Virus record (IMG/VR): IMGVR_UViG_3300033991_000127
Coordinates: 1 to 29,606 of that record
DNA from: a virus
Reading direction: 5' to 3' (one strand)
Length of the DNA: 29,606 nucleotides
Shown here: positions 1 to 19,017 of the stretch, piece by piece
How the letters are laid out: every line of letters begins with the position of its first letter
Position numbering within the stretch: position 1 is the first letter of the stretch
The notes under the pieces: generated by a model
Database searches by the model: none
Told to the model about the DNA's origin: nothing
Seen by the model: the letters and a program-made list of their open reading frames with translations, nothing else
Program-made: the position numbers and the translations under genes

Positions 1-800
1 GATGAAATTGTATATCTCATTATTTTGTTTGTTTTCTTTGAGATTGTCTCTACCAAAGCAGTTTGTTCTGCTATTATCCTTCCAAAATTGATTATTCTGA
101 ATAATGTGTCTGAAATTGTATTGTTTTCGGTAATCATCTTTAATGGTTTTTTGGAGCATAATTCTGCTAAAGCGATGGTTTCTGAAAGATATTCATGAAG
201 AATACTAGCAAGAATCGCCGAATCTGAAAAGGTTAATGATTCTGTTTTTATGCTACTTATTGCTTTGCTTGTTGTTTCTATAAGCGTTTTGCTATCAATA
301 ACAGATTTGTTGCTTTGTAATACTTTGATGTCAGAAATAGCAAAAATTTCATCATCAAATTTGTTCGTATGTATCGATTTTATATCTGTTAGTATAGAAG
401 ATTCTATCAACGACCTGATAAATGTTTTCAATGATAATATAGAGTCTGAAAGTGAAAGTGAATCTATCTGTAATTTTTTCATCTGTTCTGATAATTTGTC
501 GGTGATTGATAGGATTTCATTTTTGATTGTTTTGAGCAATATGATTCGTTTGTCATCTACTGTCAGGGCTTCGATTCTAGTCGCTAATGTTTTTCTTAAA
601 ACAATTCCAGTTATTGTTGAAGATTCCAATATTATTTGAGATTTGATGATGCTTTTCAATATGACATCGCTTAAATTTGTGCTTTCAAGAAGTGGGATAT
701 TCGCCTGTTTTATAGCCATATCTGATGGTGCTAAATTTTCCAATCTTAAAATCTGTGAAAACTTAATTGTGTTGTCTATGTTTGTTAGTGTTTCGCTACA
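1..800 (-). repeat. 18-20 residue protein repeats in fibre C-terminal region
   Basis: Codons 288-553 of the methyltransferase/fibre gene encode about 14 degenerate units that begin with E/D-S/T and carry a hydrophobic-(S/T)-D/E core, for example ESTNLSDVILK, DSLSLSDSILS, ESLTFSDSAIL and TENNTISDTLF. Regular hydrophobic spacing suggests an elongated repeat fold such as a solenoid or fibre shaft. The array is cut by the window edge, so its full length is unknown. Confidence 0.75.
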
Positions 801-1661
801 AGTTTGACTATATTCTTCACCACCAACTTCAGTATAAGTAATCCTCACAGGCAACCAATCTACATATAATGTGTGACCTATTGTCGGCAAAACCTCTGAT
901 TTTCCTATTATAAATCCATATTTTACTAATTCTCCATTTGCCACGCTTATTTCAACTTGGTCTAAAAAGTTCAATTTATCTGTTAATGAGGTTATTGTCT
1001 GTTCTAGATATTGCAGTCTGAATGCTGAAGTCATTTCTGTTTCTAAATCCATCCATTTTGCCTTGAATTTGAATTTCTCTTTATTTGCTTCTATATAACT
1101 ATAATCTTTATAGGAACTTGTATAATAATAGCTTGAAATAATGATTATTCCGTTTTCTGACAGTAATTCAGATATGCTTTCTATATAAGCTAGAACTTCT
1201 GACATGTTTGCAAATATCTCTCCTAAAAGATTGTTCATTATCAGTATGACATCAAATGAACCTTTGGAAAAATTTAATTCTTTGGCATCCATAAGAAAGA
1301 CATTTAATCCTCTCTGCTTACAAATGTCAATCATAACTTGGGAAGTGTCGACTCCTGTATAATCACATGATTTTTTATCTTTCAAATATACCCCAAATCT
1401 TCCAGTTCCACAACCCAATTCTAGAACTTTCGCTTTGTTTGGAATCTTGTTTATAAGATATTTTTCTTCCTTTCCCCACCAATCTGGATTAGACAATACA
1501 AATTGATTTATGAAAACTCTTCCTGTATTCTCATCGTAGTATCCATCTTCCTCAGTATAATGAACCTCGTTTTCTTCAAAGTCGGTTGTAAGAAGGTCGT
1601 CTCCCCATTTGTTCCAATAGTTAGAAACTGCACTTTCCCAGAGTTCGTTTATAGTGGTCAT
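1..1661 (-). CDS. SAM methyltransferase fused to fibre-like repeat protein (partial, runs off left edge)
   Basis: An open frame of 553 codons with no stop reaches the left edge. Residues 1-257 form a class I SAM-dependent methyltransferase: motif I VLELGCGTG at 79-87, YTGVDTS (acidic ribose-binding residue) at 101-107, and motif IV-like FDVILIMNN at 136-144. Residues 265-278 (LYVDWLPVRITYTE) look like the closing strands of a phage fibre beta-sandwich domain, not like methyltransferase sequence. From about residue 288 onward the protein is an array of 18-20 residue repeats. The ATG at 1661 lies 1 nt after the stop of the Hint/fibre gene. Methyl acceptor is unknown. A methyltransferase at the N-terminus of a fibre-type protein is unusual; it may have been inserted into a fibre gene (see findings). 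Domain assignment is firm, the biological role is inference. Confidence 0.85.
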   Translation of the reverse strand, partial: MTTINELWESAVSNYWNKWGDDLLTTDFEENEVHYTEEDGYYDENTGRVFINQFVLSNPDWWGKEEKYLINKIPNKAKVLELGCGTGRFGVYLKDKKSCDYTGVDTSQVMIDICKQRGLNVFLMDAKELNFSKGSFDVILIMNNLLGEIFANMSEVLAYIESISELLSENGIIIISSYYYTSSYKDYSYIEANKEKFKFKAKWMDLETEMTSAFRLQYLEQTITSLTDKLNFLDQVEISVANGELVKYGFIIGKSEVLPTIGHTLYVDWLPVRITYTEVGGEEYSQTCSETLTNIDNTIKFSQILRLENLAPSDMAIKQANIPLLESTNLSDVILKSIIKSQIILESSTITGIVLRKTLATRIEALTVDDKRIILLKTIKNEILSITDKLSEQMKKLQIDSLSLSDSILSLKTFIRSLIESSILTDIKSIHTNKFDDEIFAISDIKVLQSNKSVIDSKTLIETTSKAISSIKTESLTFSDSAILASILHEYLSETIALAELCSKKPLKMITENNTISDTLFRIINFGRIIAEQTALVETISKKTNKIMRYTIS

Positions 1662-1662
1662 A

Positions 1663-2382
1663 TCAGGTCTTCGAAAGGTTATGTATCAATAAATCTCCTG
1701 AATAGAAATTTTCCAGTTCGGTCTCGATGTTGTAAACTATTCCTTTATATTCTCTAGCATTTGGCTGGATTTCAAATACTTCTTTCCACTGGTTATCTAT
1801 CCATATCTTATGGTTTCCAGCAAATTCTATATCTTTATAAATATGAATCATCCAAGTTCCAAAATGAATAGTTCTTGCCTTTATCTTAGTGAACACTTTC
1901 CTTCCATTTTCATCTCCGATTACATATTCTCCTATTTTTAAGTCTTCTATATTTTTCAATCCATTAGGAGTTAAAATTTGAGTTCCTTTCTTAAAACATC
2001 CAGATGAAACATAGGAAACGATTTTGGTTTTAAAATTAGTATTATTCAAAAGAGTCCACGTCCATGTTCTATCTGATGTCCTGTCATAATAATCCAAAGT
2101 TTCATAAAGATAGGGGGTTGTGTTTGTAACATATGTCCAACTTGAGCCACCATTGACACTATAATAAAGTGTTATTGTATGACCACTTACATTAGTATAT
2201 CTTTCTATGCCGATTTCTACAGTGTCTATTGTTTCATCGGTTCCTGTAATTCCATAGTCTCCATATTCGTTTGTTAGTGCAGTCGTAGTTGTATAAGCTC
2301 TTACATTATTTGAAGAATAAGCATTCTGTGGATTAGTCCAAGACCCAGAATTTGAACTGGGAGAATATACTGTTTGTGTCAT
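1663..2382 (-). CDS. Tail-fibre-like protein with C-terminal Hint (intein-like) domain
   Basis: Numbered from an in-frame GTG at 2391, residues 4-131 are a Ser/Thr/Tyr-rich beta-sandwich domain of the type found in phage fibre or baseplate proteins (WTNPQNAY near the start, NNTNFKTKIVSYVSSG at the end). At Cys132 a Hint autoprocessing domain begins: CFKKGTQILTPNGLKNIEDL (block A), NHKIW with His194 (block B) and NFYSGDLLIHN ending in His237-Asn238 (blocks F/G). Only LSKT follows before the stop. Residue +1 after Asn is Leu, not Cys/Ser/Thr, which matches A-type bacterial intein-like (BIL) domains rather than classical inteins. No endonuclease insert is present. The chosen start is ATG 2382, 4 nt after a GTGAT ribosome site. 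The product may cleave or cross-ligate itself on the virion; this is inferred. Confidence 0.85.
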   Translation of the reverse strand: MTQTVYSPSSNSGSWTNPQNAYSSNNVRAYTTTTALTNEYGDYGITGTDETIDTVEIGIERYTNVSGHTITLYYSVNGGSSWTYVTNTTPYLYETLDYYDRTSDRTWTWTLLNNTNFKTKIVSYVSSGCFKKGTQILTPNGLKNIEDLKIGEYVIGDENGRKVFTKIKARTIHFGTWMIHIYKDIEFAGNHKIWIDNQWKEVFEIQPNAREYKGIVYNIETELENFYSGDLLIHNLSKT

Positions 2383-2429: not shown

Positions 2430-2900
2430 TTATGTGTATTGGACTTTATGTGTTAGTTGCAATGAGTCTCCGCTTGCCACATTTATTGCTGAAAATGTCG
2501 CCCTTGCCGCCAATGTTCCGCTTGATGCCAAATCAAATATTCCAGCTTCCGTTATTGCAGTTGCCGCGTTAAAATTGAATGTTGCTACTAATTGGGCTGT
2601 ATCGTTAGTTGTCGTGGTTGTTACTCGGCTACATGTTGCTGAAGCCCTGTCTCCTGCTTGTGCTGCCAAGTCTGTATCTGCTGCTGCCGGTGTCGTTGTT
2701 CCAGTTCCTATAGCTAGTGCTGTAAATGCCTGGCTGACCCCTCCGTTGAACAATCCTGCTACCTGAGCCTTGCCTGTGGTCACAACCAAGTTTGGAACAT
2801 CTATCTCTTCAATTGGCATACCATTTCTATAATGAATAAAATTTATGTGACCTTTCATTCCAACGTTTTCAAATCCTCTATTATATTTATCAAAATCCAT
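2430..2900 (-). CDS. Small phage structural protein (fibre/baseplate-associated type)
   Basis: This 156-residue protein has an N-terminal arm followed by a compact Ala/Thr/Gly-rich beta domain: a NLVVTTGKAQVAGLFNGG segment, ALAIGTGTTTPAAADTDL, then ITEAGIFDL and DSLQLTHKVQY at the C-terminus. That pattern is common in small virion proteins encoded near tail fibres of tailed viruses; no enzymatic motif is visible. AGGTGAATCC precedes the ATG at 2900. It lies directly upstream of the Hint/fibre gene, consistent with a fibre or fibre-attachment role. The exact virion location cannot be told. Confidence 0.7.
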   Translation of the reverse strand: MDFDKYNRGFENVGMKGHINFIHYRNGMPIEEIDVPNLVVTTGKAQVAGLFNGGVSQAFTALAIGTGTTTPAAADTDLAAQAGDRASATCSRVTTTTTNDTAQLVATFNFNAATAITEAGIFDLASSGTLAARATFSAINVASGDSLQLTHKVQYT

Positions 2901-2911
2901 GGATTCACCTA

Positions 2912-3811
2912 TTATATTATTTTATCTTTCGTATTTATAAAGTTAATGTAAGCTTTCATGCCCCCTTCTAGGCTTCTGGGTATTGTCTTGAATTCAGCAA
3001 AAAATCTGCTCGTATCCGCTACTGTCTTTTCTACATACGTGCTGGGTTTCTCCACATAAATCGGCTTAAGTATGGTATCCAAATGCATGTTTATTATTTC
3101 TATCAGCTTGTTGAAGCTGTATGCCTTTCCGGTGCCCAGATTGTAAATCGGATATTTTAATTCCTTTTCAGCACCTTCAATCAGTGCATCAACTATATCA
3201 TCTATGTAGATAAAATCCCTTCTTTGCGAACCGTCCCCCCATATTACTGGTTGCTTGTCGTTTAGCATGTCCCTTAAAAACAATGTAACCGCACTTGAAA
3301 TGTCTCCTTTATGTGCTTCTCCCATTCCATATCCTGCGAATATTCTGAATCCGACTGAACTAACATCCCAAGCCAGTCTAGCCATTGTTTCGCATATTTT
3401 CTTGCCTAACCCATATAAATTATTGGGATATGTTTCACAATCCTCATCAAATGGCAAGGTGTTTCCATAAATGTTTCCGGAACTGGGATATATTAATTTG
3501 GCATTATTTCCTCTAGCTACATCTATTGCAGCATTCATTCCCATTATAGTTGCATGCAACGAATTGAGTGGGTCTTTATTATATTGTATTACCGAACAAG
3601 GTCCAGCAAAATAAAAGACATAATCTACTTTTTCATTTATGTTCATATGCATAATATCTTGATTATAAAAAATAACGCCATTGGGTATATTTTCTTTTTT
3701 TCCAAACGAAAGATTATCTATTCCAATTACTTTATATCCTCTTTTTAATAATCCTTTGCATAGATTCTGACCTATGAATCCAGCACATCCTAAAACCAAT
3801 GCGGTTTTCAT
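2912..3811 (-). CDS. NAD-dependent nucleotide-sugar epimerase/dehydratase
   Basis: An extended short-chain dehydrogenase/reductase of 299 residues. The N-terminal Rossmann motif is GCAGFIGQNL (GxxGxxG), the active site has PSSGNIYG and the YGLGK (YxxxK) pair, and DGSQRRDFIYIDD with the later YNLGTGKAYS stretch is the substrate-binding region of UDP-glucose 4-epimerase/dTDP-glucose 4,6-dehydratase relatives. The likely reaction is epimerisation or 4,6-dehydration of a nucleotide sugar in the cytoplasm. The start is ATG 3811, which overlaps the upstream stop as ATGA and follows GGGGGAG at good spacing; an upstream in-frame ATG would add ten residues. Neighbouring glycosyltransferases suggest it makes a sugar donor. 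The exact sugar is unknown. Confidence 0.88.
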   Translation of the reverse strand: MKTALVLGCAGFIGQNLCKGLLKRGYKVIGIDNLSFGKKENIPNGVIFYNQDIMHMNINEKVDYVFYFAGPCSVIQYNKDPLNSLHATIMGMNAAIDVARGNNAKLIYPSSGNIYGNTLPFDEDCETYPNNLYGLGKKICETMARLAWDVSSVGFRIFAGYGMGEAHKGDISSAVTLFLRDMLNDKQPVIWGDGSQRRDFIYIDDIVDALIEGAEKELKYPIYNLGTGKAYSFNKLIEIINMHLDTILKPIYVEKPSTYVEKTVADTSRFFAEFKTIPRSLEGGMKAYINFINTKDKII

Positions 3812-4788
3812 AAGCATCTCCCCCATCTCGCAAGGCATCTCTTGCAGTGGTCGAACTCTTCAGTGTCTTCTTTTGCTTCGAACTTGTCCAACGGCATTGC
3901 ATTCAGTTTAAATATCTTTCTTCTCAAGTCCTCCCATTTGTCGCTCCTCCACATATCTATAAAACTCTCCTCATATAGGTTTCCCATATTATATTCATAT
4001 TGGGGAACATCATATCCTTCTCCGAGATGCCATGATTTCCATGTGCCGTCTTTTGTGTTTTCTATGCTCTGATACACATAGTCGCATGGATAAACTGTCC
4101 CATCATAGGCTATTATCGGATTCGAAAATGCCCTAAAACATGGTCTCTGCTGCATTTTGACTGGAGACGTCATGCATCTGACCTGAAGATTGTTGCACAT
4201 GTTTATTATCCTTGCCATCCTGTCTTCAAAATCTTCCATTCGAAAAACACTCAGTTCCTCTTCAAGATGTTTTGTGAAATACATCGGATAGAAAAGTATT
4301 ATATTTGCATTTATAATATGGCAGAGATTGATTAACTCCTCTGTCCTATCTAGGCTATTTCTCATTAACAGATGGTTGATGTTGATGTTCAAGTCTGTTC
4401 TTTTGGCTTTTAATTTCATTATATTTTCAATCACATTTTGACATTCTTCGTGTCCTTCATCTACAGATATATGAAGTGTTGAATTTTGTGGAATTAATTT
4501 CATATTTTCATCAGTTATTAAAGAAGCGTTAGTAGTTAATGAAGAATCGATTTTTGAGTTCATAAAATAATTGAGAGATTTTTCTAAATCCTTATAGCAA
4601 AATGGGTCTCCTAGTGCTCCGATAGCTATATTTCTAGCCCAAGGAAGTTTTTCTGCTAAAGTCTTCAAGTCTTCGAATGGTCTTTGACCGAATGGTTTTT
4701 TCATCTGTCTTTTGATGCACATTTTACATTTGAAATTACAATCATGATTGACATCTATTATATAATTTAATGGAAGTGGGCAGTTCAT
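3808..4788 (-). CDS. Radical SAM/SPASM-domain enzyme (copy 1)
   Basis: The [4Fe-4S]-binding CxxxCxxC motif appears as CNFKCKMC near residue 20. The second radical SAM element reads GALGDPF instead of the usual GGEP. The C-terminus has a Cys-rich SPASM-type region (RPCFRAF, VYPCDYVY, HCKRCLARWGRC) that would hold auxiliary iron-sulfur clusters. The family performs radical chemistry on peptides or sugars. The ATG at 4788 overlaps the upstream stop (TAATG) and is preceded by AGGTGG 6 nt away, so it is preferred over the GTG at 4797. Context in a sugar cluster favours a sugar substrate, but peptide modification of a virion protein cannot be excluded. It shares the ALGDPF variant with the second radical SAM gene at 8320-9510. 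Confidence 0.88.
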   Translation of the reverse strand: MNCPLPLNYIIDVNHDCNFKCKMCIKRQMKKPFGQRPFEDLKTLAEKLPWARNIAIGALGDPFCYKDLEKSLNYFMNSKIDSSLTTNASLITDENMKLIPQNSTLHISVDEGHEECQNVIENIMKLKAKRTDLNININHLLMRNSLDRTEELINLCHIINANIILFYPMYFTKHLEEELSVFRMEDFEDRMARIINMCNNLQVRCMTSPVKMQQRPCFRAFSNPIIAYDGTVYPCDYVYQSIENTKDGTWKSWHLGEGYDVPQYEYNMGNLYEESFIDMWRSDKWEDLRRKIFKLNAMPLDKFEAKEDTEEFDHCKRCLARWGRCL

Positions 4789-5915
4789 TACATCCACCTA
4801 TAGATGATTTTGCTCCATATTCTCATCGCCCTTATCATCCTCTTGAAGTATATCTCAACCTCTGGATGAAACTTATTCTTTGTAACTTTCTCTATATAAT
4901 CTGTCATTTTAATATAGCCATCATTATAGCTTGTACAGTCCAAATTAGCATCAATAATCATCTTTACTGTCTTATCGTTCAATACTATTCCAGAAAATTC
5001 CGCCTTCAAGTCTTTATTATAGTCGTGGGTGTTTCTTCTATGTTCTGCTAATGGTATTCCAAACGAGACCGTATGACCTAAAGCATGAGATATTTTCTGC
5101 AGTATGAATCCAGACCAAATATCATCAAATCTGTCGATTTTGTTTTCGTAAATTGCCGTATCTTGAAATAGCAAATAATATGCTGGTAGAACCTCCTTTA
5201 AGAAAGCAGTATTTTGAGTATTAATTGGAATGAAATGATGTAGTGAAAGAGCATATCTTTTTATCAAATTATTTATCTTATTGCTGACCAAATCTGGATA
5301 TATTATATTGGTATAGCTGTCTACGTCTGGCTTGTTTGTCCAAAGTCCCATATTTAGAACTACTTTGTTTTTGTTCTCTATGGAGTTGACAAATTCGTCT
5401 GAATATATCTCCGAAATCGGATATCCCCTCATATAAATAGGACTATGATTACACCCTAGCATATTACATGGATTGACCGTTCTGTTTGGAGAAAAAACAG
5501 TTGGCGTTTTATCAGTAAAGGCATTAATATGCTCTCCCAACCAGTCCCCAGTTGGATAGTTGTCGTCATCTATGGTTATTATCACATCAGAACCAAGTTC
5601 TAAAGCCCTTAGATAACCGAAATTCCTTCTTCTAACGCTTTGATAGGGAATTGCAAACCCAACTTCCTCTTTTAGCTTCGGATAATGCTCGTTAATCCAA
5701 GATTCTTGCTTTTTTATATTAAAAAACTCTATGGTTCCATCTTTTCCATAATCAAAGAACTTGTCCAAGATGTAATGACCGCTTTCTTCTGGTGTTTTTG
5801 TATCACCGACTATGATTATATTCCAGTCCTTATGACCATACTTTTCAAGATTGGGAACATACTCATCTAAAAATCTCGGTAAATTAATCGTTGTTGTAAC
5901 TATACTCGTCTTCAT
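4788..5915 (-). CDS. GT-A-type glycosyltransferase, resembling reversibly glycosylated polypeptide/STELLO families
   Basis: The protein starts with a nucleotide-binding strand (MKTSIVTTTINLPRFLDEY) and carries SVRRRNFGYLRALELGSDVI followed by TIDDDNYP, an acidic DDD metal/nucleotide-sugar motif of GT-A folds. The surrounding sequence resembles reversibly glycosylated polypeptides (UDP-arabinopyranose mutases) and STELLO proteins more than ordinary GT2 enzymes. The role is either sugar transfer or sugar-nucleotide mutase activity in glycan assembly. The start at ATG 5915 is chosen because GAGGAG lies 7-8 nt upstream; it overlaps the previous gene by 32 nt. An upstream in-frame start would add 13 residues. 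The subfamily assignment is moderate. Confidence 0.72.
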   Translation of the reverse strand: MKTSIVTTTINLPRFLDEYVPNLEKYGHKDWNIIIVGDTKTPEESGHYILDKFFDYGKDGTIEFFNIKKQESWINEHYPKLKEEVGFAIPYQSVRRRNFGYLRALELGSDVIITIDDDNYPTGDWLGEHINAFTDKTPTVFSPNRTVNPCNMLGCNHSPIYMRGYPISEIYSDEFVNSIENKNKVVLNMGLWTNKPDVDSYTNIIYPDLVSNKINNLIKRYALSLHHFIPINTQNTAFLKEVLPAYYLLFQDTAIYENKIDRFDDIWSGFILQKISHALGHTVSFGIPLAEHRRNTHDYNKDLKAEFSGIVLNDKTVKMIIDANLDCTSYNDGYIKMTDYIEKVTKNKFHPEVEIYFKRMIRAMRIWSKIIYRWM

Positions 5916-6996
5916 GCCACATCTCCTCAAATATTTTAGCATATCGTTTTCCAAATGCTTCCCAAGTAAGATTGTTTCTTATCCATTCTGCATCTTTTCT
6001 TCTATTACTTCTTTCTGTTTTCATATTTACTTCTGTTCCTAAAACTTTTATAACGTCTGCAAATTCAGAAATATCTTTTACTAAACCCAAATGATGTTTT
6101 ATTACTAAATTGGCAGCCACAAAATCAGGACTTACTATTATAGGACATCCTGTTACTGCAGCTTCAAAAGTAGTAGCCCAACCACCTTGGTCTAAAAATG
6201 GTCCAATATATACATCTGCTATATTATATAGGTCTCTCATTTCCTCGTCCGATTCAATATATCCTGTGAATATGACATCATCCATTACATCCAAGTCCAA
6301 TGCTTTGCTCATTACCTGCTGTTTGTATGGGTCTTTATCGTATCCAGCCAATACCAAAACTGCATTTGGAATCTTCTTCTTTACTTCTGCTAGTATCTCT
6401 ACTGCTGCTACTTGATTTTTAGTGAAGGTGATATATCCGGCTTCTAGAATTACAAATTTGTCTTTTAATTTATATTTTTCTCTCGTCTTTTTAGGATTTA
6501 CTTTTTCTGAGAAATAATCATATCTGACTCCTGGATAGTTGACTATCAAATCGTCCCTCTCATAGATTTTACTGCTTCTGTCTTTTTCATAATCTGTTAT
6601 TACAACTACCTTGTCTATATATTTATTTACTATGTCTTTATATAAACCTGGCAGTTTTTCTCCTCTCAATACTTCAAGTGGTGGTTCGTTTAATTGCCAA
6701 ACGGTTTTGAATTTTTTTGGAAAGACCATTAGTTCGCATGGATGATTGTGTGGATTAATTATATCAAATCTTGGCATTAGATTATGAAGCGTACCCACTA
6801 GTTTGTTTGTATCTAATCCAGTCTCTATTATTCTGGCTTCCTTTAATTCTTTTTTGAATTCTGGAATAGCTCGTTGGGTAAGTACGCATACTACAAAATT
6901 GTGGTCGGTAAGATAGTTAGCCAAGTGGACAATCTGCCTTTCTGCTCCTCCCCATACATAAATTTCCGGTTCAATTATCAAGATGCTCGGTTTCAT
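5884..6996 (-). CDS. GT4-type glycosyltransferase (GT-B fold)
   Basis: The N-terminus has the donor-independent GT4 signature GGAERQIVHLANYL. The C-terminal Rossmann domain contains KFVILEAGYITFTKNQ, a VLAGYDKDPY strand, VIFTGYIESDEEM and EAAVTGCPIIVS, corresponding to the E(x7)E-type nucleotide-sugar site (the first Glu is replaced within GPFLDQGGWATTFEAA). The protein is 370 residues, the normal length for the family, with no membrane segment. It likely transfers an activated sugar to a growing glycan. It begins with ATGA overlap to the upstream gene. The donor and acceptor cannot be read from sequence. Confidence 0.88.
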   Translation of the reverse strand: MKPSILIIEPEIYVWGGAERQIVHLANYLTDHNFVVCVLTQRAIPEFKKELKEARIIETGLDTNKLVGTLHNLMPRFDIINPHNHPCELMVFPKKFKTVWQLNEPPLEVLRGEKLPGLYKDIVNKYIDKVVVITDYEKDRSSKIYERDDLIVNYPGVRYDYFSEKVNPKKTREKYKLKDKFVILEAGYITFTKNQVAAVEILAEVKKKIPNAVLVLAGYDKDPYKQQVMSKALDLDVMDDVIFTGYIESDEEMRDLYNIADVYIGPFLDQGGWATTFEAAVTGCPIIVSPDFVAANLVIKHHLGLVKDISEFADVIKVLGTEVNMKTERSNRRKDAEWIRNNLTWEAFGKRYAKIFEEMWHEDEYSYNND

Positions 6997-7646
6997 TTTT
7001 TCACCTTCAAATAAGGAACAGTAGTAACTACTGGATGTGGTGCTCCATGCCTATATACATTCATTTCTCCTATTCTTATTCCATGGTCTGATGTGATTAC
7101 ATCCGGATTAATCTTTGAGTTCTTTATTTTTTCTAGTACATATCTGATTTCTTCCTTATATAGATTTTTTATTTCTTCCCAGCCATTTTTATTACCATAA
7201 TCTGTCACTAATTGATGGTCAAGAGGCATTCCGTGTCCAGACGTGCCCAGACTTTTTAAGAATTCTCTTCCCTTTGGGTTATTAAACGGTATATGCGACT
7301 GAAGAAAGTGTATAAGTATCCTTTTATCTGGATGTTTTTCGATTACTTTTTCTGCAAAAGTTATCTGCTCGTCTATCTTCAACATGGTGTCATAATCCCA
7401 CATCTTGTAAGCCTTGAAAAACGATTTTCCGAACATATCAACAAAATGTATTCCATGAATCAAAATGGTATCTGAATTGTCTCTTCCGAGCCAATGTGTT
7501 ATATACCATTGCTGTGTATCTAAACACCCATCATTGTCTATCATCATCAGTTTTCCTTCAAAAACATCATTGGCTTCTTTAAAACAATCATATCTGCATC
7601 CGTCTAATACTACCAATACTTTCCATTTTTCGTCTCTTGGATTCAT
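6993..7646 (-). CDS. Sulfatase/alkaline-phosphatase superfamily protein
   Basis: This 217-residue protein carries the N-terminal strand VLVVLDGCRYD (metal-binding Asp and the position of the nucleophile in this superfamily), IHFLQSHIPF in the middle, and ITSDHGIRIGE followed by HGAPHP near the C-terminus, which supply the second metal-site Asp/His residues. It is shorter than typical arylsulfatases (about 450 residues), but compact archaeal members of this type occur beside glycosyltransferases. It may transfer or remove phosphate or sulfate groups on a glycan. There is no signal peptide, so it acts in the cytoplasm. Both ends overlap neighbours as ATGA. The exact reaction is unknown. Confidence 0.75.
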   Translation of the reverse strand: MNPRDEKWKVLVVLDGCRYDCFKEANDVFEGKLMMIDNDGCLDTQQWYITHWLGRDNSDTILIHGIHFVDMFGKSFFKAYKMWDYDTMLKIDEQITFAEKVIEKHPDKRILIHFLQSHIPFNNPKGREFLKSLGTSGHGMPLDHQLVTDYGNKNGWEEIKNLYKEEIRYVLEKIKNSKINPDVITSDHGIRIGEMNVYRHGAPHPVVTTVPYLKVKK

Positions 7647-8191
7647 TTTTTTGCTACCACCCTAATCAATAATGGGTCTTCGTTTTTGTAAACAGACATC
7701 CCATGACCCTTCTTATAATATAATATCTCAAAACCATTATCAATTAATAACTTCAATAACCACTCTCCGTCTATTAGGTTTCTTTTATGTTTGGGAAACA
7801 ATTTAGGTTTATCTCCCTTGGCTCTACATTCTATTAAGAATAATCCTCTTGTCCATTTTACTAATTCTTCTACTTTCTTATTGCTAATAGAATTCAAGAA
7901 AAATCTTGTATAGACTATATCAAAACAACTAAAATCATAATTTGAGAAATCCTTTATATCGATTTTTGTAAATAAAACCCTTTTATTATCTTTTGGTTCG
8001 GTGGCATAGTCTACACCTAAAACAAGTTCCGCATGTTTTCCAAGAAAATAACTATCTCTGCCATTGCCGCATCCTATATCCAAAACCCAATCATTTTTTG
8101 TTATGTATTTACTACAGAATTTGGCAAAATTCGAGGGGTTTTTCTCGTCAAACTTCCTATAAAATTTCTCCCAATATTTTTTATTGTTCAT
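7643..8191 (-). CDS. Class I SAM-dependent methyltransferase
   Basis: Motif I is WVLDIGCGNGRDSYFL, followed by VLGVDYA (acidic motif II) and CFDIVYTRFFLNSI (motif IV). At 182 residues it is a minimal single-domain methyltransferase, most like the TehB/small-molecule group. Its place between a sulfatase-like gene and radical SAM/sugar genes suggests O-methylation of a sugar or of a glycan end, but the acceptor is not visible in the sequence. The ATG sits inside the 3' end of a 49-residue zinc-ribbon-like gene, indicating translational coupling. Confidence 0.85.
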   Translation of the reverse strand: MNNKKYWEKFYRKFDEKNPSNFAKFCSKYITKNDWVLDIGCGNGRDSYFLGKHAELVLGVDYATEPKDNKRVLFTKIDIKDFSNYDFSCFDIVYTRFFLNSISNKKVEELVKWTRGLFLIECRAKGDKPKLFPKHKRNLIDGEWLLKLLIDNGFEILYYKKGHGMSVYKNEDPLLIRVVAKK

Positions 8192-8330
8192 TTGGTATCA
8201 ACTCGTTTCCTATTATAGCTTGACAGTTTTCACATCTGCTAAAATTCTTACTAATTTTAGTAAATGGTCCTTTATGTTTCCACTCTCCCCTTCCTTCAGA
8301 ACATTTTCTAATTGTCGCCTTATCTCTCAT
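8181..8330 (-). CDS. Tiny zinc-ribbon-like protein, 49 aa
   Basis: A 49-codon frame reads MRDKATIRKCSEGRGEW at its start and SRCENCQAII near its end, giving Cys10, His19 and a CxxC pair (33/36) as a possible zinc site. The start follows GTGATATC (a good archaeal ribosome site) and overlaps the upstream radical SAM gene by 11 nt; the stop overlaps the next methyltransferase start. Size, spacing and coupling support a real gene. Function is unknown; it may be an accessory subunit of a neighbour. Confidence 0.65.
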   Translation of the reverse strand: MRDKATIRKCSEGRGEWKHKGPFTKISKNFSRCENCQAIIGNELIPNEQ

Positions 8331-9510
8331 TGATATCACTCAAATTGTCTATATCATAGATGTTGCATATCTTGCAAACCGGATGTGCTTCCTTGACTTT
8401 TTTCTGCCATAAAAGATTTCTTAACTTGGTATATTTTTCACCATACCATATGTCTCTGAACGGTGTTTCAAATATATTTCCCATGCGGGTTTTTCTTTGC
8501 CAATCCCTCCTATTTTGCTCATTCATGCAACAACAACAAATAACCGTTCCATCTGGGAATATATATGGCATTGTCCAAGCCACACATTCGTTTGCCGGTG
8601 GCTTGTTTCTGGCATCCGCATTAAAACTAACAGGTATCCCGACTTTCTTTCCCCTGGCTTGAAGCCTCATGCACAACTCTTCTGGAACTTCCATGAAATA
8701 CGGTTCAATCTCCTTAAAGGTGTGAAGTAATCTGCTATACATTATTCCATCGCAGTTTATTCCCAAACCGTCTACCAAATCTATAAACTGTTCTGCTTCC
8801 TTGATGGTATTCTTCATAATAAGATAGTGAAAATGAATTTCTGGAAAGTGTTTGTGGTGTTTTTTCTTATAGTAATCTAATGCTTTGACATTCTCGATAA
8901 CATGGTCAAAATCTACTCCTCTTCTCATATATTCATATGTCTTCTTTGTGGCAGCATCAATTGAGAACTTTACATAAGCATGAGTATTCATTGTTACGAA
9001 TTTTTCCATATCTTTGGGTTCTAATAATTGGCTTGTTAGATAAATTTCTTGATTAACTCCTTTGTCGCCGACATATTTTACCATCTTCCAGTAGTCTTTA
9101 TTGGTAAATGGGTCTCCCAAAGCATTGTTTCCAGCCCACTTTAAATTAGGAAATTGGTCCATAGCACACTTGAAATCCTTAAAAGATACCTGAATTGGTT
9201 TCTCGTCCCAGTAGCTTAATTCGCATTGTCTGCACCTAAGTGGGCAAATTCCCTGTGTTACTTCCATTTCTATATATTCTGGATATGGCTGCAGTCTATA
9301 TAATAGTTTGATTATTCTCGGGTCTCTAGTCATATAAAAAGTAAATAGATGCAAAAGATTGTAAGTTCTTTTATAGCCCAATTCAGCCCAAACAGAACTA
9401 GCATTCACGCTAGCATATGCTCTTTCGGCTATACTTTTCTCTACAGCATTCATTTCTTCGTCTGGATGGTCTCCTCCTCTCATTTCAAAATCGATGCTAG
9501 CTGGTATCAT
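8320..9510 (-). CDS. Radical SAM/SPASM-domain enzyme (copy 2)
   Basis: The cluster-binding motif is CPLRCRQC near residue 90, preceded by an N-terminal extension of about 80 residues. The second element reads NNALGDPF, the same ALGDPF variant as the first radical SAM gene. The C-terminus has NECVAW, GTVICCCCMN and HPVCKICNIY, a SPASM-type set of cysteines including four in a row. It probably performs a radical modification of a sugar or peptide. The start ATG overlaps the upstream stop as ATGA. The shared variant motif suggests that the two radical SAM genes belong to one subfamily and may act in sequence. Confidence 0.88.
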   Translation of the reverse strand: MIPASIDFEMRGGDHPDEEMNAVEKSIAERAYASVNASSVWAELGYKRTYNLLHLFTFYMTRDPRIIKLLYRLQPYPEYIEMEVTQGICPLRCRQCELSYWDEKPIQVSFKDFKCAMDQFPNLKWAGNNALGDPFTNKDYWKMVKYVGDKGVNQEIYLTSQLLEPKDMEKFVTMNTHAYVKFSIDAATKKTYEYMRRGVDFDHVIENVKALDYYKKKHHKHFPEIHFHYLIMKNTIKEAEQFIDLVDGLGINCDGIMYSRLLHTFKEIEPYFMEVPEELCMRLQARGKKVGIPVSFNADARNKPPANECVAWTMPYIFPDGTVICCCCMNEQNRRDWQRKTRMGNIFETPFRDIWYGEKYTKLRNLLWQKKVKEAHPVCKICNIYDIDNLSDINER

Positions 9511-10154
9511 TTTATCGCCACCATTAATACCCTGTCTCCTGCAAGAGCAACGAATTTTGTCTTTCTAAATCCTATTCTGTTAAGCATCTTTAATATACAA
9601 TCTGGTGTCATTCCCCAATAAACCGTTGGGTCTTCGTTGCATTCGTCTTTGCCATAAAAATAAGCCATTTCATAATGGGATGGTGAGGGAATAACGTGCC
9701 CCTCTAAAAGCAACATATCGTTTGTAATATCATAACATTTTTCAAATAGGTCATAGGGATTTTTAGCATGGTAAAATATTCCAAAATTAAAGATAACGTC
9801 AAAATTATCAAGTTTATTCATTTCTGATATATCCATCAGTTTGAATTTTATATTATATCCCAACTCTTTGTTTATATGTTTATATTTTTTGCATAGTGTT
9901 TCTGGTTCTTGATTAAATACTATTTTTTCACTTATTCCACTATCTATGGATAATACTTTAGTTGCACCTCTTTCCTTTGCTATTATCGAATAAAATCCGT
10001 CCCAAGCAGCTATATCAAGAACAGATTTACCAGTTAAATTCTTCGGAATTAAAGAAGATACCCACATCTGATGTTCGAAGGAATTCTTTCCAGCTATATT
10101 TAGTTGTGGTATCGTATGATACCATTTTAGTTTTTCAGTCTTCAAAATAATCAC
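9507..10154 (-). CDS. CmoB-like class I methyltransferase
   Basis: The N-terminal stretch KWYHTIPQLN and motif I SVLDIAAWDGFYSIIAKERGA closely resemble the CmoB/DUF1698 family (tRNA uridine-34 carboxymethyl/methyl transferases and relatives), with the acidic VLSIDS motif after it and FDVIFNFGIFYHAKNPYDL as motif IV. Relatives in sugar clusters methylate small molecules, so a tRNA role is not implied here. The start is uncertain: GTG at 10154 or TTG at 10145, the latter placed 4 nt after a GGTGAT ribosome site and therefore favoured by spacing. It overlaps the zinc-ribbon gene upstream. Confidence 0.82.
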   Translation of the reverse strand: MIILKTEKLKWYHTIPQLNIAGKNSFEHQMWVSSLIPKNLTGKSVLDIAAWDGFYSIIAKERGATKVLSIDSGISEKIVFNQEPETLCKKYKHINKELGYNIKFKLMDISEMNKLDNFDVIFNFGIFYHAKNPYDLFEKCYDITNDMLLLEGHVIPSPSHYEMAYFYGKDECNEDPTVYWGMTPDCILKMLNRIGFRKTKFVALAGDRVLMVAIK

Positions 10155-10341
10155 CGTTCAATCCAACCAATTTTTTGATTTTCTTGGCTAATTCGAGTGT
10201 TATTTCACAACTCCAACCCGGGTCGCAGTTTTCACACATTCCATAGTTGGTATTTGAAGCTGTCCAAAACATTCTTCCACATTTCTCACATTTTATCTTA
10301 TGTGGATAATCGTTTATGCTTGCAAAATCAATCATTTTCAT
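10135..10341 (-). CDS. Small zinc-ribbon protein, 68 aa
   Basis: Residues 18-21 (CEKC) and 36-39 (CENC) form a classic zinc-ribbon pair, followed by an aromatic/acidic linker and a helix-forming tail (ELAKKIKKLVGLN). It is wedged between an epimerase and a methyltransferase with overlap on both sides. Such miniature zinc ribbons can bind nucleic acid or act as structural adaptors; nothing specific can be claimed. Confidence 0.75.
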   Translation of the reverse strand: MKMIDFASINDYPHKIKCEKCGRMFWTASNTNYGMCENCDPGWSCEITLELAKKIKKLVGLNGDYFED

Positions 10342-11257
10342 GTTTATTCCAGTAATTTATTGTTTTTTGTAGTCCCATTTCAAGAGATATTTTAGGTATA
10401 AAACCCAGTTCTTGTATCGCTTTAGACGAGTTTAATTCTATTTTCATGAATTCTCCGGGTCTTTTTGGAAGAGTATTATAGTTTACAGTTCCTTTCCAAC
10501 CGATTAATGTCTTGCATATACCCGCCACATCTTTTATTTTCCATGCAAAGCCATGTCCTATATTATATATCTCTCCTTCTTTGCCTCTCTCAATAAGAGT
10601 ATTATACCACTCTGTTATGTCATCAATAAAAATAAAATCTCTGCTAGCGTCTGGATTGCCCAAGTTCACTTCTTTTCCTTTTAACATCTGTGTAATTATG
10701 TTTTCAACCACCCCAAGATTTGAAAATATTCCTTCTTTTCTTCCATAGCAATTGGCATGTCTGCTAATCACTATAGGGAAGTTATAAGCTTGAAACATAT
10801 ACAAAAGATACAAATCTGCTGCAAACTTGCTGACAGCATAAGGGGTTGTTGGATTGGGAAATGCTCCTTCATTTACTGGATAGGTTTTTTGGTTGCCATA
10901 GACTTCTGGTGTGCTTGCGTGTATGAATTTCTTAAGATTTGGAACTTCTCTCATAGCATTTTCTGCCATGTTTATAGTTCCTATCAGATTGGTTTCCATA
11001 TATTCTTCTGGTCTTTCAAAACTCCGACTTACACTAGATTGTGCTGCAAGATGAATTATTACATCTGGTTTGACTTCTTTAAGAATATTCTTTACTTGGA
11101 AATTCTGTGTCAAATCAACAAAAGCATACGGAAAATCTACTTTTATTTTTTTTCCAACAGCATATCTAGTTATTCCGAAGATGTCATACTTGTCTTTTAG
11201 ATAATCACAAAGATGACTACCTATAAATCCATCAAAACCCGTGATTAAAATCTTCAT
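10328..11257 (-). CDS. NAD-dependent sugar dehydratase/epimerase, GDP-mannose 4,6-dehydratase-like
   Basis: An extended SDR of 309 residues. GFDGFIGSHL gives the NAD-binding GxxGxxG, IIHLAAQSSV is the central strand, STPEVYGNQ holds the catalytic Thr region, and YAVSKFA supplies YxxxK. SRHANCYGRKEG and ASRDFIFIDD are typical of the GDP-mannose 4,6-dehydratase/dTDP-glucose dehydratase group. It likely makes a 4-keto-6-deoxy sugar nucleotide or a 4-epimer. The start ATG 11257 overlaps the stop of the preceding 28-residue gene (TGATG); two upstream TTG codons were set aside. With the epimerase at 2912-3811 it gives the cluster two sugar-converting steps. Confidence 0.88.
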   Translation of the reverse strand: MKILITGFDGFIGSHLCDYLKDKYDIFGITRYAVGKKIKVDFPYAFVDLTQNFQVKNILKEVKPDVIIHLAAQSSVSRSFERPEEYMETNLIGTINMAENAMREVPNLKKFIHASTPEVYGNQKTYPVNEGAFPNPTTPYAVSKFAADLYLLYMFQAYNFPIVISRHANCYGRKEGIFSNLGVVENIITQMLKGKEVNLGNPDASRDFIFIDDITEWYNTLIERGKEGEIYNIGHGFAWKIKDVAGICKTLIGWKGTVNYNTLPKRPGEFMKIELNSSKAIQELGFIPKISLEMGLQKTINYWNKHEND

Positions 11258-11343
11258 CAACAATTACCCCTTCTGCGTCCTGCTTTTTTTCCTTTTGGTC
11301 TAGGACTTCTTGCCCTAGGACCTCTTCCGTCTCTATTTGGCAT
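11257..11343 (-). CDS. Basic Gly/Arg/Pro-rich peptide, 28 aa
   Basis: The frame starts MPNRDGRGPRARSPRPKG and ends RRRGNC. The ATG is preceded by a perfect GGTGAT with 4 nt spacing, and its stop overlaps the epimerase start (TGATG). The MPxRDGxGP opening is shared with DUF5320-type tiny proteins of archaea and bacteria and with short phage peptides. Function is unknown; the charge suggests nucleic-acid or acidic-surface binding. Confidence 0.65.
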   Translation of the reverse strand: MPNRDGRGPRARSPRPKGKKAGRRRGNC

Positions 11344-11347
11344 TATA

Positions 11348-11440
11348 TCACCTTCTTTTTTTACTTTTTACATGCTTCTTTCTTCTTCTCTTGATTTTCT
11401 TTTTAGATAGTTTTCTTTTTGTTATTTTATCACCTTTCAT
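11348..11440 (-). CDS. Highly basic peptide, 30 aa
   Basis: Thirty codons, more than half Lys or Arg (MKGDKITKRKLSKKKIKRRR at the start), with no acidic cluster beyond one Asp. It sits between two better supported tiny genes and overlaps the 59-residue gene by 11 nt. No strong ribosome site is seen. It may be a nucleic-acid-binding peptide; it could also be chance coding. Confidence 0.4.
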   Translation of the reverse strand: MKGDKITKRKLSKKKIKRRRKKHVKSKKRR

Positions 11441-11609
11441 ATGTTTCATCATCTATAATCGGTTCAATGGATGTTTTTTTTCTTTTCATCCAACAATAAT
11501 TCATTTCTTCATCTGCATCTAATGTGTCTATAAAGTCTTTCCATTCTTCTCTTTCTATTGTTTTAAATTCTAATCCAGACTTCAATTTCATACAATAAAA
11601 TTCTGTCAT
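11430..11609 (-). CDS. Small acidic protein, 59 aa, unknown
   Basis: The frame reads MTEFYCMKLKSGLEFKTIER at its start and EEWKDFIDTLDADEEMNYCW in the middle, then a short basic patch and an acidic tail. It starts with ATGA overlap to the HNH endonuclease stop, typical of real coupled genes here. No family is recognised. Confidence 0.6.
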   Translation of the reverse strand: MTEFYCMKLKSGLEFKTIEREEWKDFIDTLDADEEMNYCWMKRKKTSIEPIIDDETYER

Positions 11610-12172
11610 TTCATTTCCTCGATAGCCTTTATAGCTTTCTTAGCTTTCCATATTTTCCAATTTTCTTCCTTTCTCCATTTTTGACATTTTCTACAATATT
11701 TTGATTTTTTATATGAAGCTTTTAAAACATAGAATACATTACCGCAACGAATACAGTTCTTTTTTAACTTCTTCACTGTTTGAGGTGCCGGTTCAATTTT
11801 ATTATGACAACTTCGACAAAGTGTTATTCCATTATCTATATTAAAGGCTAATTCAGGAAAATTTCTCGTATTCTTTATATGATGGGCATTAATAAATCTT
11901 TTACTTCCACATTTCTGACAAGTAAAATTATCTCTTTCTTTTACTCTTTTTCCCCAACTAACTAAACCATGCATATTATTTTCTTTAAATTCATGATTTA
12001 ATTCATGTTGTTGCATTTCTGAATAATTTCTTATTTTGATTTTGTATGCATTCAACCAATTATAAATTGTTTGTTCACTCTGGATGTCGAATATATCTGC
12101 AATTTTTCTTGCAGATAATTTTTCTTTTATATATAACTCTTCAAGTTCACATGGAGACGGTCTTTCATACAT
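11606..12172 (-). CDS. HNH endonuclease with N-terminal HTH-like and C-terminal zinc-ribbon segments
   Basis: The N-terminal 50 residues (CELEELYIKEKLSARKIADI then QTIYNWLNAYKIKIRN) resemble a helix-turn-helix of homing-endonuclease DNA-binding type. The core is an HNH nuclease: RDNFTCQKCG, INAHHIKN (the catalytic His pair) and DNGITLCRSCHNKIE. A second four-Cys zinc site follows (CIRCGNVF, YCRKCQ). Free-standing HNH genes of this kind are common in tailed viruses and move by homing. It lies between a glycosyltransferase and small genes in an otherwise biosynthetic operon, suggesting later insertion. The start ATG 12172 follows GGTGA with 5 nt spacing; an upstream TTG would add four residues. 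Confidence 0.85.
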   Translation of the reverse strand: MYERPSPCELEELYIKEKLSARKIADIFDIQSEQTIYNWLNAYKIKIRNYSEMQQHELNHEFKENNMHGLVSWGKRVKERDNFTCQKCGSKRFINAHHIKNTRNFPELAFNIDNGITLCRSCHNKIEPAPQTVKKLKKNCIRCGNVFYVLKASYKKSKYCRKCQKWRKEENWKIWKAKKAIKAIEEMK

Positions 12173-12184
12173 TATTTTCACCAA

Positions 12185-13267
12185 TTAAATTTTCTTTAAT
12201 GCATCAATAGCCTTAATAGCAGCGCAATCCCAAGTCCATTTATTCATGTCTTTACTAGCCGATTCTCCGAGTTTTTTAGCTTCTTCTTTATTGTCGAATA
12301 TATATCTCATTTTTTCTCTTAATTCCTTTATAGTTGGTTCAGCCCATTTGCCGAATTGCAAGAAGGTAAATGCAAAATCTTGGTCTGCTGGAACCATTTT
12401 GAATTTCTTTAGCAAGTAGGCGTTCTTTTCATTGGCATAGTCCATATGTGCACCATAGCCAGTAGTAATGCTTGGCAAACCACAACTCATGGCTTCAATC
12501 AACGGAAGATTCCATCCTTCTCCCCTAGTCGGATTTACAAAACAGTCTGCCGAAGTATATAGTCTACCCATATCACTATATTGGGGTATCATTCCCTCTA
12601 CTATCTGAAAATCCGCCCTTGTTTCTGGAACTTTGAAATTAATTAACTGCTTGTAGATATTAAACTGACTGTCAAACAATCTGATTGAATCTGCTACAAT
12701 GACCAACTCTACCTTTTCCTTTTCATTGAATTCCTCGCAATACGCCTTGATAGCCAAATCATATCCCTTTCTCTTTTCCCATTTTCCAACCAATAAAAAT
12801 CTGAATTTGTCCTGCTTTGGAACCAATGGTTCTCTCCATGGACTAAATAAGTTCTGGTCTACTCCACCAGGTACAACAAAGATATCCTTCTTGACTCCAG
12901 AATTCTTGAATACTTCTTTTCCCCATGTGCTCGGTGTCCATACTGCGTCCATTCTGTTCAGAGACATGACCCAAAGCGGAGGTATCTTGTCCACTTCAAG
13001 CATTGTGTACATTATTCTTTTCTTTCCATGAAAACTAAGCGTCTCAGATGGTGTTCCTATTGATAGTCTTATTGCCACATCCGCATCTAGTGTTTTTTCG
13101 TCTGTTTTCATCAGTGGTTGCAGCCTTTCTTCTGCCATTCTCATCTCATCTAGATATGATGGTATCACGCTTATATTATGCCCTAGCTTTTTTATCGCTG
13201 GACAAAGATAGTTTGTAAATCTTCCGTATCCTGTGGGTCCGACTGGACCCCAAAAATTAATATTCAA
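12185..13267 (-). CDS. GT4-type glycosyltransferase
   Basis: A GT-B fold enzyme of 360 residues. The N-terminal domain begins NINFWGPVGPTGYGRFTNYL; the C-terminal domain has FRFLLVGKWEKRKGYDLAI and the donor site RGEGWNLPLIEAMSCGLPSI with the E(x7)E spacing. The start has no ATG; TTG at 13267 is favoured because AGGAG lies 9 nt upstream, against a second TTG at 13276 that would sit directly on the ribosome site. It belongs to the same operon as the GT4 at 13445-14647, and both have the same domain order. Confidence 0.87.
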   Translation of the reverse strand: MNINFWGPVGPTGYGRFTNYLCPAIKKLGHNISVIPSYLDEMRMAEERLQPLMKTDEKTLDADVAIRLSIGTPSETLSFHGKKRIMYTMLEVDKIPPLWVMSLNRMDAVWTPSTWGKEVFKNSGVKKDIFVVPGGVDQNLFSPWREPLVPKQDKFRFLLVGKWEKRKGYDLAIKAYCEEFNEKEKVELVIVADSIRLFDSQFNIYKQLINFKVPETRADFQIVEGMIPQYSDMGRLYTSADCFVNPTRGEGWNLPLIEAMSCGLPSITTGYGAHMDYANEKNAYLLKKFKMVPADQDFAFTFLQFGKWAEPTIKELREKMRYIFDNKEEAKKLGESASKDMNKWTWDCAAIKAIDALKKI

Positions 13268-13268
13268 C

Positions 13269-13355
13269 TTAATCAACTCCTAATTGTTTTTTCTTCAACT
13301 CTACCATTTCTTTCAACAGTTCTCTTATGTCTATTAAAACATCAATTTCTTTCAT
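13269..13355 (-). CDS. Tiny helical peptide, 28 aa
   Basis: The frame reads MKEIDVLIDIRELLKEMVEL then KKKQLGVD, with a heptad-like Leu/Ile pattern consistent with a short coiled coil. GAGG lies 7 nt before the ATG at 13355, and its last codons hold the ribosome site of the downstream glycosyltransferase. It may be a real small protein or a coupling leader peptide. Confidence 0.5.
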   Translation of the reverse strand: MKEIDVLIDIRELLKEMVELKKKQLGVD

Positions 13356-13476
13356 TTTCATTCCTCTTGTCTATGTTGTTTAAAAAATTCTTGAAACCCA
13401 TTTTTCTCTTATGTTCAATTGACAAATGCTTTCCCTTGTTCCAGCTACTTTTGTGCTTGTATACTCCCTTGGGCAT
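13342..13476 (-). CDS. 44-aa NUMOD3-like DNA-binding peptide
   Basis: The frame begins MPKGVYKHKSSWNKGKHLSI and continues EHKRKMGFKNFLNN. The WNKGKxLSxEHKRKMG pattern is that of NUMOD3, the modular DNA-binding motif found as tandem copies in homing endonucleases. Here it stands alone. GGAG lies 7 nt before the ATG, inside the end of the upstream glycosyltransferase. It may be a remnant of a lost endonuclease or a stand-alone DNA-binding peptide. Confidence 0.6.
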   Translation of the reverse strand: MPKGVYKHKSSWNKGKHLSIEHKRKMGFKNFLNNIDKRNENERN

Positions 13477-14647
13477 TTTGTTTCTCCTTGTTTAATTCGT
13501 CCTGTATTTTGTCCATTGCTTTCATCCATCTGCCTTTTACCAACGGTCCATTCCAGTCATATTGCTGTGCGTTCTGCAAGCTCCATTCTGAATAGAACTT
13601 ATATTTTTCTTTGTTCTTCCAGAGCATCTCAAGTTTGTCTGCAGCATCATTTGCATCTGGAACTGCTGTCCATGACAATAATGGTGTCAATATTTTTGCA
13701 TCTAACTTTACCCTTAGGTCTGGATGCGTAAGTTCTTTCCCTGCTGCAAAGTCCGTTACAATACATGGAATGCCACACGCTTGACTTTCTATAATCGGCA
13801 TGCCAAATCCTTCTCTCGAAGTACACATCATGCAAACATCAAACATGCTATAGATTTCCGGCATCTTCTCATAGGGAAGCTGTGTAATAAAATAATACGG
13901 GTCTGAAATATAAGTTATGTCTTCTAGTCCGAAAAACCTTACCATTCCGTTCAAGTCAAAACCATGTACATAATTGTTTATATCGGTATGTAAATATACC
14001 CTTAGATGACAGTCTGGATTTTTGTCCTTGAAAATTTTGATTGCCTCGAACTGCTTCTCCCATCTTTTTCTTCCTTCCTTGTCGTAATTCCCAGCAACTA
14101 TTCCTATCATGAAACAATCCAAGTCGGCTTTTTTAATATTCCATGTTTTTCTGCATTGAAGTTTATCTAATGGCCTGAACAAATTCAAGTCCAAGCCATG
14201 AGGAATATAATCCATTGTTTTTATGCCAACGGATTCCATTGATTCCTTGCTCCACTTTGTAAAGGGTATTACTTTCCAGCATTTCTTGAGGACATTCTCC
14301 AAGTATTTTGCAGTCGGGTCGTGGTCTGTGGGGCTATATGCTACGACATGGTTGAATTTATCGAGTTCTGGAATTACCCACACATCAAAAATGGGAAGCA
14401 AAATGTCCGCCTTGGTCCTGCTTATGTGCTCTAAAAATATATCCTTTCCCCATGGGTCCCTCCATCTAGGGAGAATATTCATACCGCTCCATGTGAGCGG
14501 ATGCCCGCAGTCAACGCCCCAGTATGCAAAAATATTGACTGTATGCCCCATGTCCTGAAGCATTTTAGAAATATATCTCGTTATTATAGAATAAGCTGAA
14601 TTTCCCAACGGCGAATTCGACATAATAAGTATGTTGATAACAGTCAC
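13445..14647 (-). CDS. GT4-type glycosyltransferase, first gene of the decoration operon
   Basis: A GT-B fold protein of about 400 residues with VTVINILIMSNSPLGNSAYS at the N-terminus and, in the C-terminal domain, IGIVAGNYDKEGRKRW, then CTSREGFGMPIIESQACGIP, the GT4 donor-binding region with the paired Glu residues. An archaeal TATA box lies 35 nt upstream, so this gene probably opens a transcript running down to the fibre genes. The start is uncertain among TTG 14650, GTG 14647 and ATG 14623; the N-terminal strand argues for one of the first two. The tail is Gln/Lys-rich. Confidence 0.87.
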   Translation of the reverse strand: MTVINILIMSNSPLGNSAYSIITRYISKMLQDMGHTVNIFAYWGVDCGHPLTWSGMNILPRWRDPWGKDIFLEHISRTKADILLPIFDVWVIPELDKFNHVVAYSPTDHDPTAKYLENVLKKCWKVIPFTKWSKESMESVGIKTMDYIPHGLDLNLFRPLDKLQCRKTWNIKKADLDCFMIGIVAGNYDKEGRKRWEKQFEAIKIFKDKNPDCHLRVYLHTDINNYVHGFDLNGMVRFFGLEDITYISDPYYFITQLPYEKMPEIYSMFDVCMMCTSREGFGMPIIESQACGIPCIVTDFAAGKELTHPDLRVKLDAKILTPLLSWTAVPDANDAADKLEMLWKNKEKYKFYSEWSLQNAQQYDWNGPLVKGRWMKAMDKIQDELNKEKQNAQGSIQAQK

Positions 14648-14681
14648 CAATAAAATATATAATAGAAATTGGTTTTCCCTA

Positions 14682-19016: not shown

Positions 19017-19017
19017 A

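Follow-up and report, generated by a model that had tools for sequence, protein, structure and literature searches.

In the virus record IMGVR_UViG_3300033991_000127, a fibre gene that was once continuous is cut, just before the last strand of its domain, by a 1.1-kb cassette encoding a Hint domain and a methyltransferase, as is established here by sequence comparison with uninterrupted relatives. The stretch that we analysed (the window, 29,606 nucleotides) is the complete virus record, a 29.6-kb fragment in which HK97-type capsid, portal and terminase genes are encoded (Pfam and PHROG matches). The two parts of the fibre domain lie in adjacent genes, termed here gene A and gene B. Measured from the Cys codon that opens the Hint domain (Cys129, 1996-1998) to the base before the fibre strand of gene B, the insert occupies positions 876-1998, i.e., 1,123 nucleotides. 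The features of the locus are listed below, with the basis of each assignment in brackets; L058 is an intact viral homologue described in the next section, as is the profile.

1663-2382, minus strand: gene A, 239 amino acids counted from the ATG at 2382
<3-1661, minus strand: gene B, starting at the ATG at 1661, in another frame than gene A and running off the left end of the record
1999..2382, minus strand: gene A residues 1-128, jelly-roll domain of the fibre, lacking the last strand and ending ..NNTNFKTKIVSYVSSG (L058 alignment, profile)
1666..1998, minus strand: gene A residues 129-239, Hint domain from Cys129 to His-Asn 234-235, then LSKT (Pfam, structure-sequence alignments)
1662..1665, minus strand: TGA stop of gene A and the single base preceding the gene B ATG, TGA-T-ATG (sequence)
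891..1661, minus strand: gene B residues 1-~257, complete class I S-adenosylmethionine (SAM) methyltransferase (Methyltransf_25; phrog_22502, phrog_4752)
876..890, minus strand: gene B residues 258-262, linker from the methyltransferase to the fibre strand (sequence, alignment)
828..875, minus strand: gene B residues 263-278, the missing last strand of the fibre domain, HTLYVDWLPVRITYTE (profile positions 126-139; identity to intact viral genes)
3..827, minus strand: gene B residues 279-553, fibre repeats of the LSD/E type, truncated by the end of the record (phrog_12240, 1.5e-5, with the part of gene B after the methyltransferase as the query)
2430..2900, minus strand: upstream neighbour, a tail- or fibre-associated gene (phrog_5417, 1.6e-21; phrog_4176, tail fiber, 1e-10)

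The fibre domain is uninterrupted in cellular and viral relatives

We searched for the missing strand alone, running a DNA pattern derived from gene B only (DWxPVxxxYT) over 85,000 prokaryote genomes. Ten loci were retrieved, and in seven of them the motif forms the end of an uninterrupted secreted-type domain. A profile was then built from the six of these seven loci that had enough upstream sequence, with no sequence of this virus included. Profile positions 1-120 matched gene A with 32 bits, and positions 126-139 matched gene B with 15 bits when a 50-residue piece was used and 10 bits with the whole product, whereas the two parts joined together gave a single continuous alignment of 52 bits. 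The last strand was reached by 87 of the 91 profile hits that cover this region in the fetched loci (some hits being counted in more than one locus), and dozens of cellular homologues are continuous across the break point.

Moreover, an alignment search revealed the gene whole and in one frame in three viral contigs, L058 (161 amino acids) and the near-identical L056 and L057 (171 amino acids), all of which use the same start codon position as gene A (the N-terminus reads MTETTNSPSSNTGSWTNP in L058 and MTQTVYSPSSNSGSWTNP in gene A). The ATG start of gene A is backed by intact homologues (MTETTNSPSS.., MSIQIYSPT..). L058 aligns with residues 1-128 of gene A at a score of 216, the highest of 300 shuffles reaching 90, and then, after one residue between the two parts, with residues 264-286 of gene B at a score of 65 (highest shuffle, 55). 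Within the gene B strand, 10-11 of 12 residues are identical to the intact viral genes. Since gene A alone recognises L058 (42% identity over 107 residues, E 1e-12), this match is independent of the motif used to find the contigs. By these comparisons, the split is far beyond chance.

These results bear on an original prediction made from the letters of this DNA, which held that a Hint and methyltransferase cassette interrupts the fibre gene at this place, and that removing the segment would restore a continuous fibre. Every element of it is present in the sequence, the joined flanks align as one, and the uninterrupted homologue across the junction that it had named beforehand as a test exists in the three viral contigs and also in numerous cellular proteins. 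Its boundaries for the segment (890-1993) came close to those measured here. The start of the Hint domain was placed correctly; its designation as Cys132 takes an in-frame GTG at 2391 as the start, and the residue becomes Cys129 when counted from the ATG.

Other searches yielded little. Single-protein scans of viral contigs gave no matches, whether gene A, gene B, the joined fibre or the capsid protein served as the query; a first DNA pattern produced two hits that were both due to chance, and a second produced none. In named phages, tblastn returned inteins, weak fibre matches and one methyltransferase only. A hit in Rctr197k was rejected as a fibre relative, and the terminase sequences were too diverse for their alignment to be of use. 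A further viral contig, L011, encodes (6430-8556) a beta domain of another kind with LTExxTATxxx repeats after it, an order and repeat style similar to those of gene B.

The break point falls in the last beta-hairpin of the domain

To describe the fold we relied on the intact L058 protein, for which AlphaFold, given an 11-row alignment, produced a model with a predicted local distance difference test score (pLDDT) of 89.8 and a predicted template modelling score (pTM) of 0.83. In this model, the break point maps to the loop that joins strands 119-125 and 133-145 in the last beta-hairpin, and the later strand is a well-ordered part of the fold. Gene A alone should therefore not fold properly, and the N-terminal domain does not appear complete without the later strand; the original prediction had named the opposite outcome, a domain complete without it, as its refutation. 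Among structures in the PDB, the neighbours of the model are carbohydrate-binding modules (CBMs) and other jelly rolls (best E 8e-5, with template modelling (TM) scores of only 0.4-0.55), and its viral neighbours include uncharacterised phage proteins (TM 0.7-0.8); the tail protein of Methanobacterium virus Drs3 also resembles it (TM 0.72). As read from this modelled relative, the joined domain is a CBM-like jelly roll, and 'fibre' seems a reasonable label for it given the fold and the neighbourhood.

A separate observation concerns a locus in a Patescibacteria metagenome-assembled genome (MAG; L086, 1057-3367), where this jelly-roll domain is likewise broken, at that same last loop. The first open reading frame stops at TGATATG, and the next encodes a signal peptide with the last strand directly behind it. 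This second split is a possible natural parallel; because it is present in one genome only, it may also be an assembly error.

The insert encodes a Hint domain resembling type-A BIL domains and a methyltransferase

The Hint domain matched Hint_2 (2.7e-6), Hom_end_hint and Vint (both 1.6e-4) and Intein_splicing (9e-3, up to the last position of the model), and these matches coincide with an intact CFKKGT / GNH / HN signature. Alignments with the structures of Spl DnaX, gp41-1 and a bacterial intein-like (BIL) domain identify a Cys1 preceded by Gly128, the block-B GNH and the terminal HN. The closest description by Pfam is Hint_2; gp41-1 aligned with an E of 0.07, and the BIL structure 2lwy over block A only (E 0.58). 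At its C-terminal end the domain reads LLIHN, followed by a Leu at the +1 position, as the first residue of LSKT, and then the stop. With Leu at this position we do not expect canonical splicing, and a class 1 intein was rejected, given this Leu in place of Cys, Ser or Thr and the lack of a single frame through both exteins. Judged by its sequence, the C-terminal His-Asn without a +1 nucleophile fits the pattern of type-A BIL domains. Such domains, lacking a +1 nucleophile, give chiefly cleavage products (PMC4031507, PMC7664689), though ligation without this nucleophile is possible, with a free amine attacking the N-terminal thioester (PMC4031507).

The methyltransferase that follows is complete and of the class I SAM type. 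Its match to Methyltransf_25 (6.3e-15) covers model positions 1-97 of 97, it carries the SAM-binding motif LELGCGTG, and free-standing homologues, drawn from genomes of the phylum of a Woesearchaeota MAG (L023), terminate where gene B reads GFIIGKSE. Homologues in which the methyltransferase-repeat protein is a normal single gene, unrelated to the N-terminal fibre half, would have counted against the original prediction; this outcome did not arise, as the homologues stand by themselves, outside any fibre. The methyltransferase is absent from nine of nine related viral records, several of which are fragments. Pfam- and PHROG-type scans of the insert detected the Hint domain and the methyltransferase only, with no endonuclease, in agreement with the predicted combination of a Hint domain complete up to its HN and an inserted methyltransferase gene.

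Several other kinds of insert were considered and rejected. No intein C-half precedes the fibre part of gene B, the methyltransferase extending to the fibre strand, which speaks against canonical trans-splicing; likewise, an ordinary intein covering both the Hint domain and the methyltransferase is contradicted by a methyltransferase that reaches its natural end and by the lack of blocks F and G before the fibre strand. No group I or II match was found in 600-2600 that would indicate a self-splicing intron. The GC content of the insert is the same as that of its flanks, giving no contrast by which a recent foreign insert could be recognised, and a search of the two junctions for a target-site duplication or inverted ends found no repeat marking both ends.

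Gene B starts immediately after gene A

As predicted, gene B begins in another frame one base past the stop of gene A, its ATG at 1661 following the TGA at 1663-1665, and its frame is open for just 24 nucleotides upstream of this ATG. No Shine-Dalgarno match was found before gene B, whereas one precedes gene A and another the upstream neighbour of gene A. The TGA-T-ATG arrangement, together with this lack, points to reinitiation after gene A as the presumed mode of translation. The TTG codon at 893-895, just upstream of the linker, is a possible internal start.

A proposed two-chain fibre domain and its alternatives

We propose, at slightly less than even confidence, that two translationally coupled chains rebuild the jelly roll non-covalently after the Hint domain has removed itself. 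In the broken gene, which originally encoded a CBM-like jelly-roll fibre protein with a repeat stalk, the Hint domain is in frame with the first half and ends gene A, and the methyltransferase is in frame with the second half and starts gene B. Ribosomes would halt on the TGA and resume at the ATG just one base further, yielding the two chains in step. The Hint domain would then cleave itself off the first half, by N-cleavage via the Gly128-Cys129 thioester and with no splicing, and the first half would capture the last strand on the gene B chain, completing the jelly roll non-covalently. In the resulting fibre, two chains would share one domain, and a methyltransferase would be attached where they join. 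Strand capture is favoured because a jelly roll deprived of the last strand would probably not be stable by itself and because the strand has stayed similar to its counterpart in the intact relatives. The intactness of both reading frames, the good preservation of the strand and a GC content as in the flanks also speak for this proposal.

A number of observations weigh against it. The four Pfam scores of the Hint domain are all below, or just below, the curated cut-offs, and its block B reads AGNH where TGNH is usual, an Ala-for-Thr change that may weaken the domain. The missing Shine-Dalgarno match is a weak sign of coupling, because several other genes of this virus also have no clear match. 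A single-sequence model of gene A (pLDDT 37) has no usable fold. Finally, the split arrangement occurs in one virus record only, and for this reason permits no test of selection or age.

Fibre genes are frequently lost or exchanged, and the insertion might simply have inactivated or truncated this one, leaving gene A as a shortened or non-functional fibre and the gene B strand as a remnant. The single record at hand and the inferred nature of the reassembly speak for this explanation, although we consider it rather unlikely: both frames are open with tight spacing of stop and start, the orphan strand keeps its 10-11 of 12 identities to intact genes, and gene A alone should misfold, given how well ordered the strand is in the intact model. 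A lower probability attaches to covalent rejoining, in which the amino end of a chain, most simply that of gene B, would attack the Gly128 thioester, ligating the N-terminal fibre part to the gene B product and leaving the methyltransferase as a nested domain in the hairpin loop. The Gly at -1, Cys1 and HN that this would use are all present, and type-A BIL domains can ligate in this way, by a free amine acting on the thioester, without a +1 nucleophile (PMC4031507). However, the C-terminal flank consists of LSKT and a stop only, no intein C-half stands ahead of the gene B fibre part, and cleavage products predominate for type-A BIL domains (PMC4031507).

We find it improbable that programmed frameshifting, or an error of one nucleotide in the record at the gene A/gene B junction, conceals a single polypeptide from which the Hint domain is excised, with the methyltransferase nested in a continuous fibre. 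The frames do fuse with a one-nucleotide shift between HN and the methyltransferase, and BIL-type splicing would then yield fibre-methyltransferase-fibre; yet a natural ATG opens gene B one base past the stop, the frame of gene B extends upstream for those 24 nucleotides alone, and the junction shows no slippery run. That the N-terminal fibre part and the strand after the methyltransferase never formed one gene might be argued from the shortness of the strand motif (12-16 residues) and the mere 10-15 bits of gene B alone, but this coincidence has almost no likelihood left and is already refuted as far as sequence can refute it, the loci found via the gene B motif alone having a gene-A-like domain directly upstream and the viral homologues aligning contiguously to both genes.

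Comparison with known systems

Dassa et al. (cited in PMC3229294) reportedly described, in 2009, fractured genes that contain split inteins and a homing endonuclease. As in our locus, the insertion of a further gene has turned one gene, still whole in relatives, into two, and the break carries intein-type sequence. In fractured genes, however, the intein N-half lies on the first gene and the C-half on the second, whereas here the Hint domain is complete and on one side only; likewise, the homing endonuclease at the break is replaced here by a methyltransferase, no endonuclease being present, and the host gene is a fibre gene. The anatomy is alike, but two defining features were tested and are absent; the locus is best called a variant of fractured genes. 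The likeness drawn by the original prediction thus holds for a continuous gene split in two and is otherwise an analogy, there being neither intein C-half nor endonuclease.

Type-A BIL domains (Amitai 2003, Dassa 2004, reviewed in PMC4031507) share with our Hint domain the Cys1, the C-terminal His-Asn, the lack of a +1 nucleophile and a location at the edge of a variable surface-type protein. The differences are that here only four residues and a stop follow, that the domain sits in a viral fibre gene, the second half of which is found in the adjacent gene, and that the activity is predicted. The ShiLan-type insertion in a phage methylase gene (PMC11855218) is, like ours, an unorthodox insertion into a viral gene, matching neither an intron nor a plain intein; it keeps the frame of its host gene and conceals an HNH in another frame, whereas here the host gene has become two chains and the payload is a methyltransferase. 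The intact fibre genes of L056-L058, for their part, have the same start, the same domain and the same YVDWLPVR[VI]T end, but no Hint domain, no methyltransferase and no long repeat stalk. Our literature search, with partial coverage of key papers, found no fibre split in this manner. It is possible, if on the doubtful side, that the locus represents a new gene-fracturing cassette: a self-cleaving Hint domain plus a methyltransferase, with no intein C-half or endonuclease, a two-chain fibre domain re-formed by capture or ligation, and an enzyme placed on the fibre.

Other genes in the record

A sugar-type block (2912-14650) separates the head genes from the terminal tail genes. It comprises two epimerases, two radical SAM/SPASM proteins, at least four glycosyltransferases and a further pair of methyltransferases; the gene B methyltransferase may belong functionally with this block. 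Two HNH endonuclease genes are present (11606-12184 and 26797-27486), as is a small protein (24803-25126) that by eye resembles a LAGLIDADG fragment. These are possible agents of insert mobility, and none of them adjoins the split fibre. The gene at 17928-19028, in the slot expected for a head maturation protease, has a weak match to the LigD 3'-phosphoesterase (PF13298, E 0.0014).

Implications

Here a single folded domain of what is likely a virion protein is broken naturally, in a well-documented way, and can be compared with the unbroken gene. The locus makes testable whether a viral Hint or BIL domain does useful work, in trimming or ligating a fibre, how a domain divided over two genes survives, and whether fibre genes take up enzymes in this way. 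If the two halves do reassemble, the break would mark a natural split site in a CBM-like fold.
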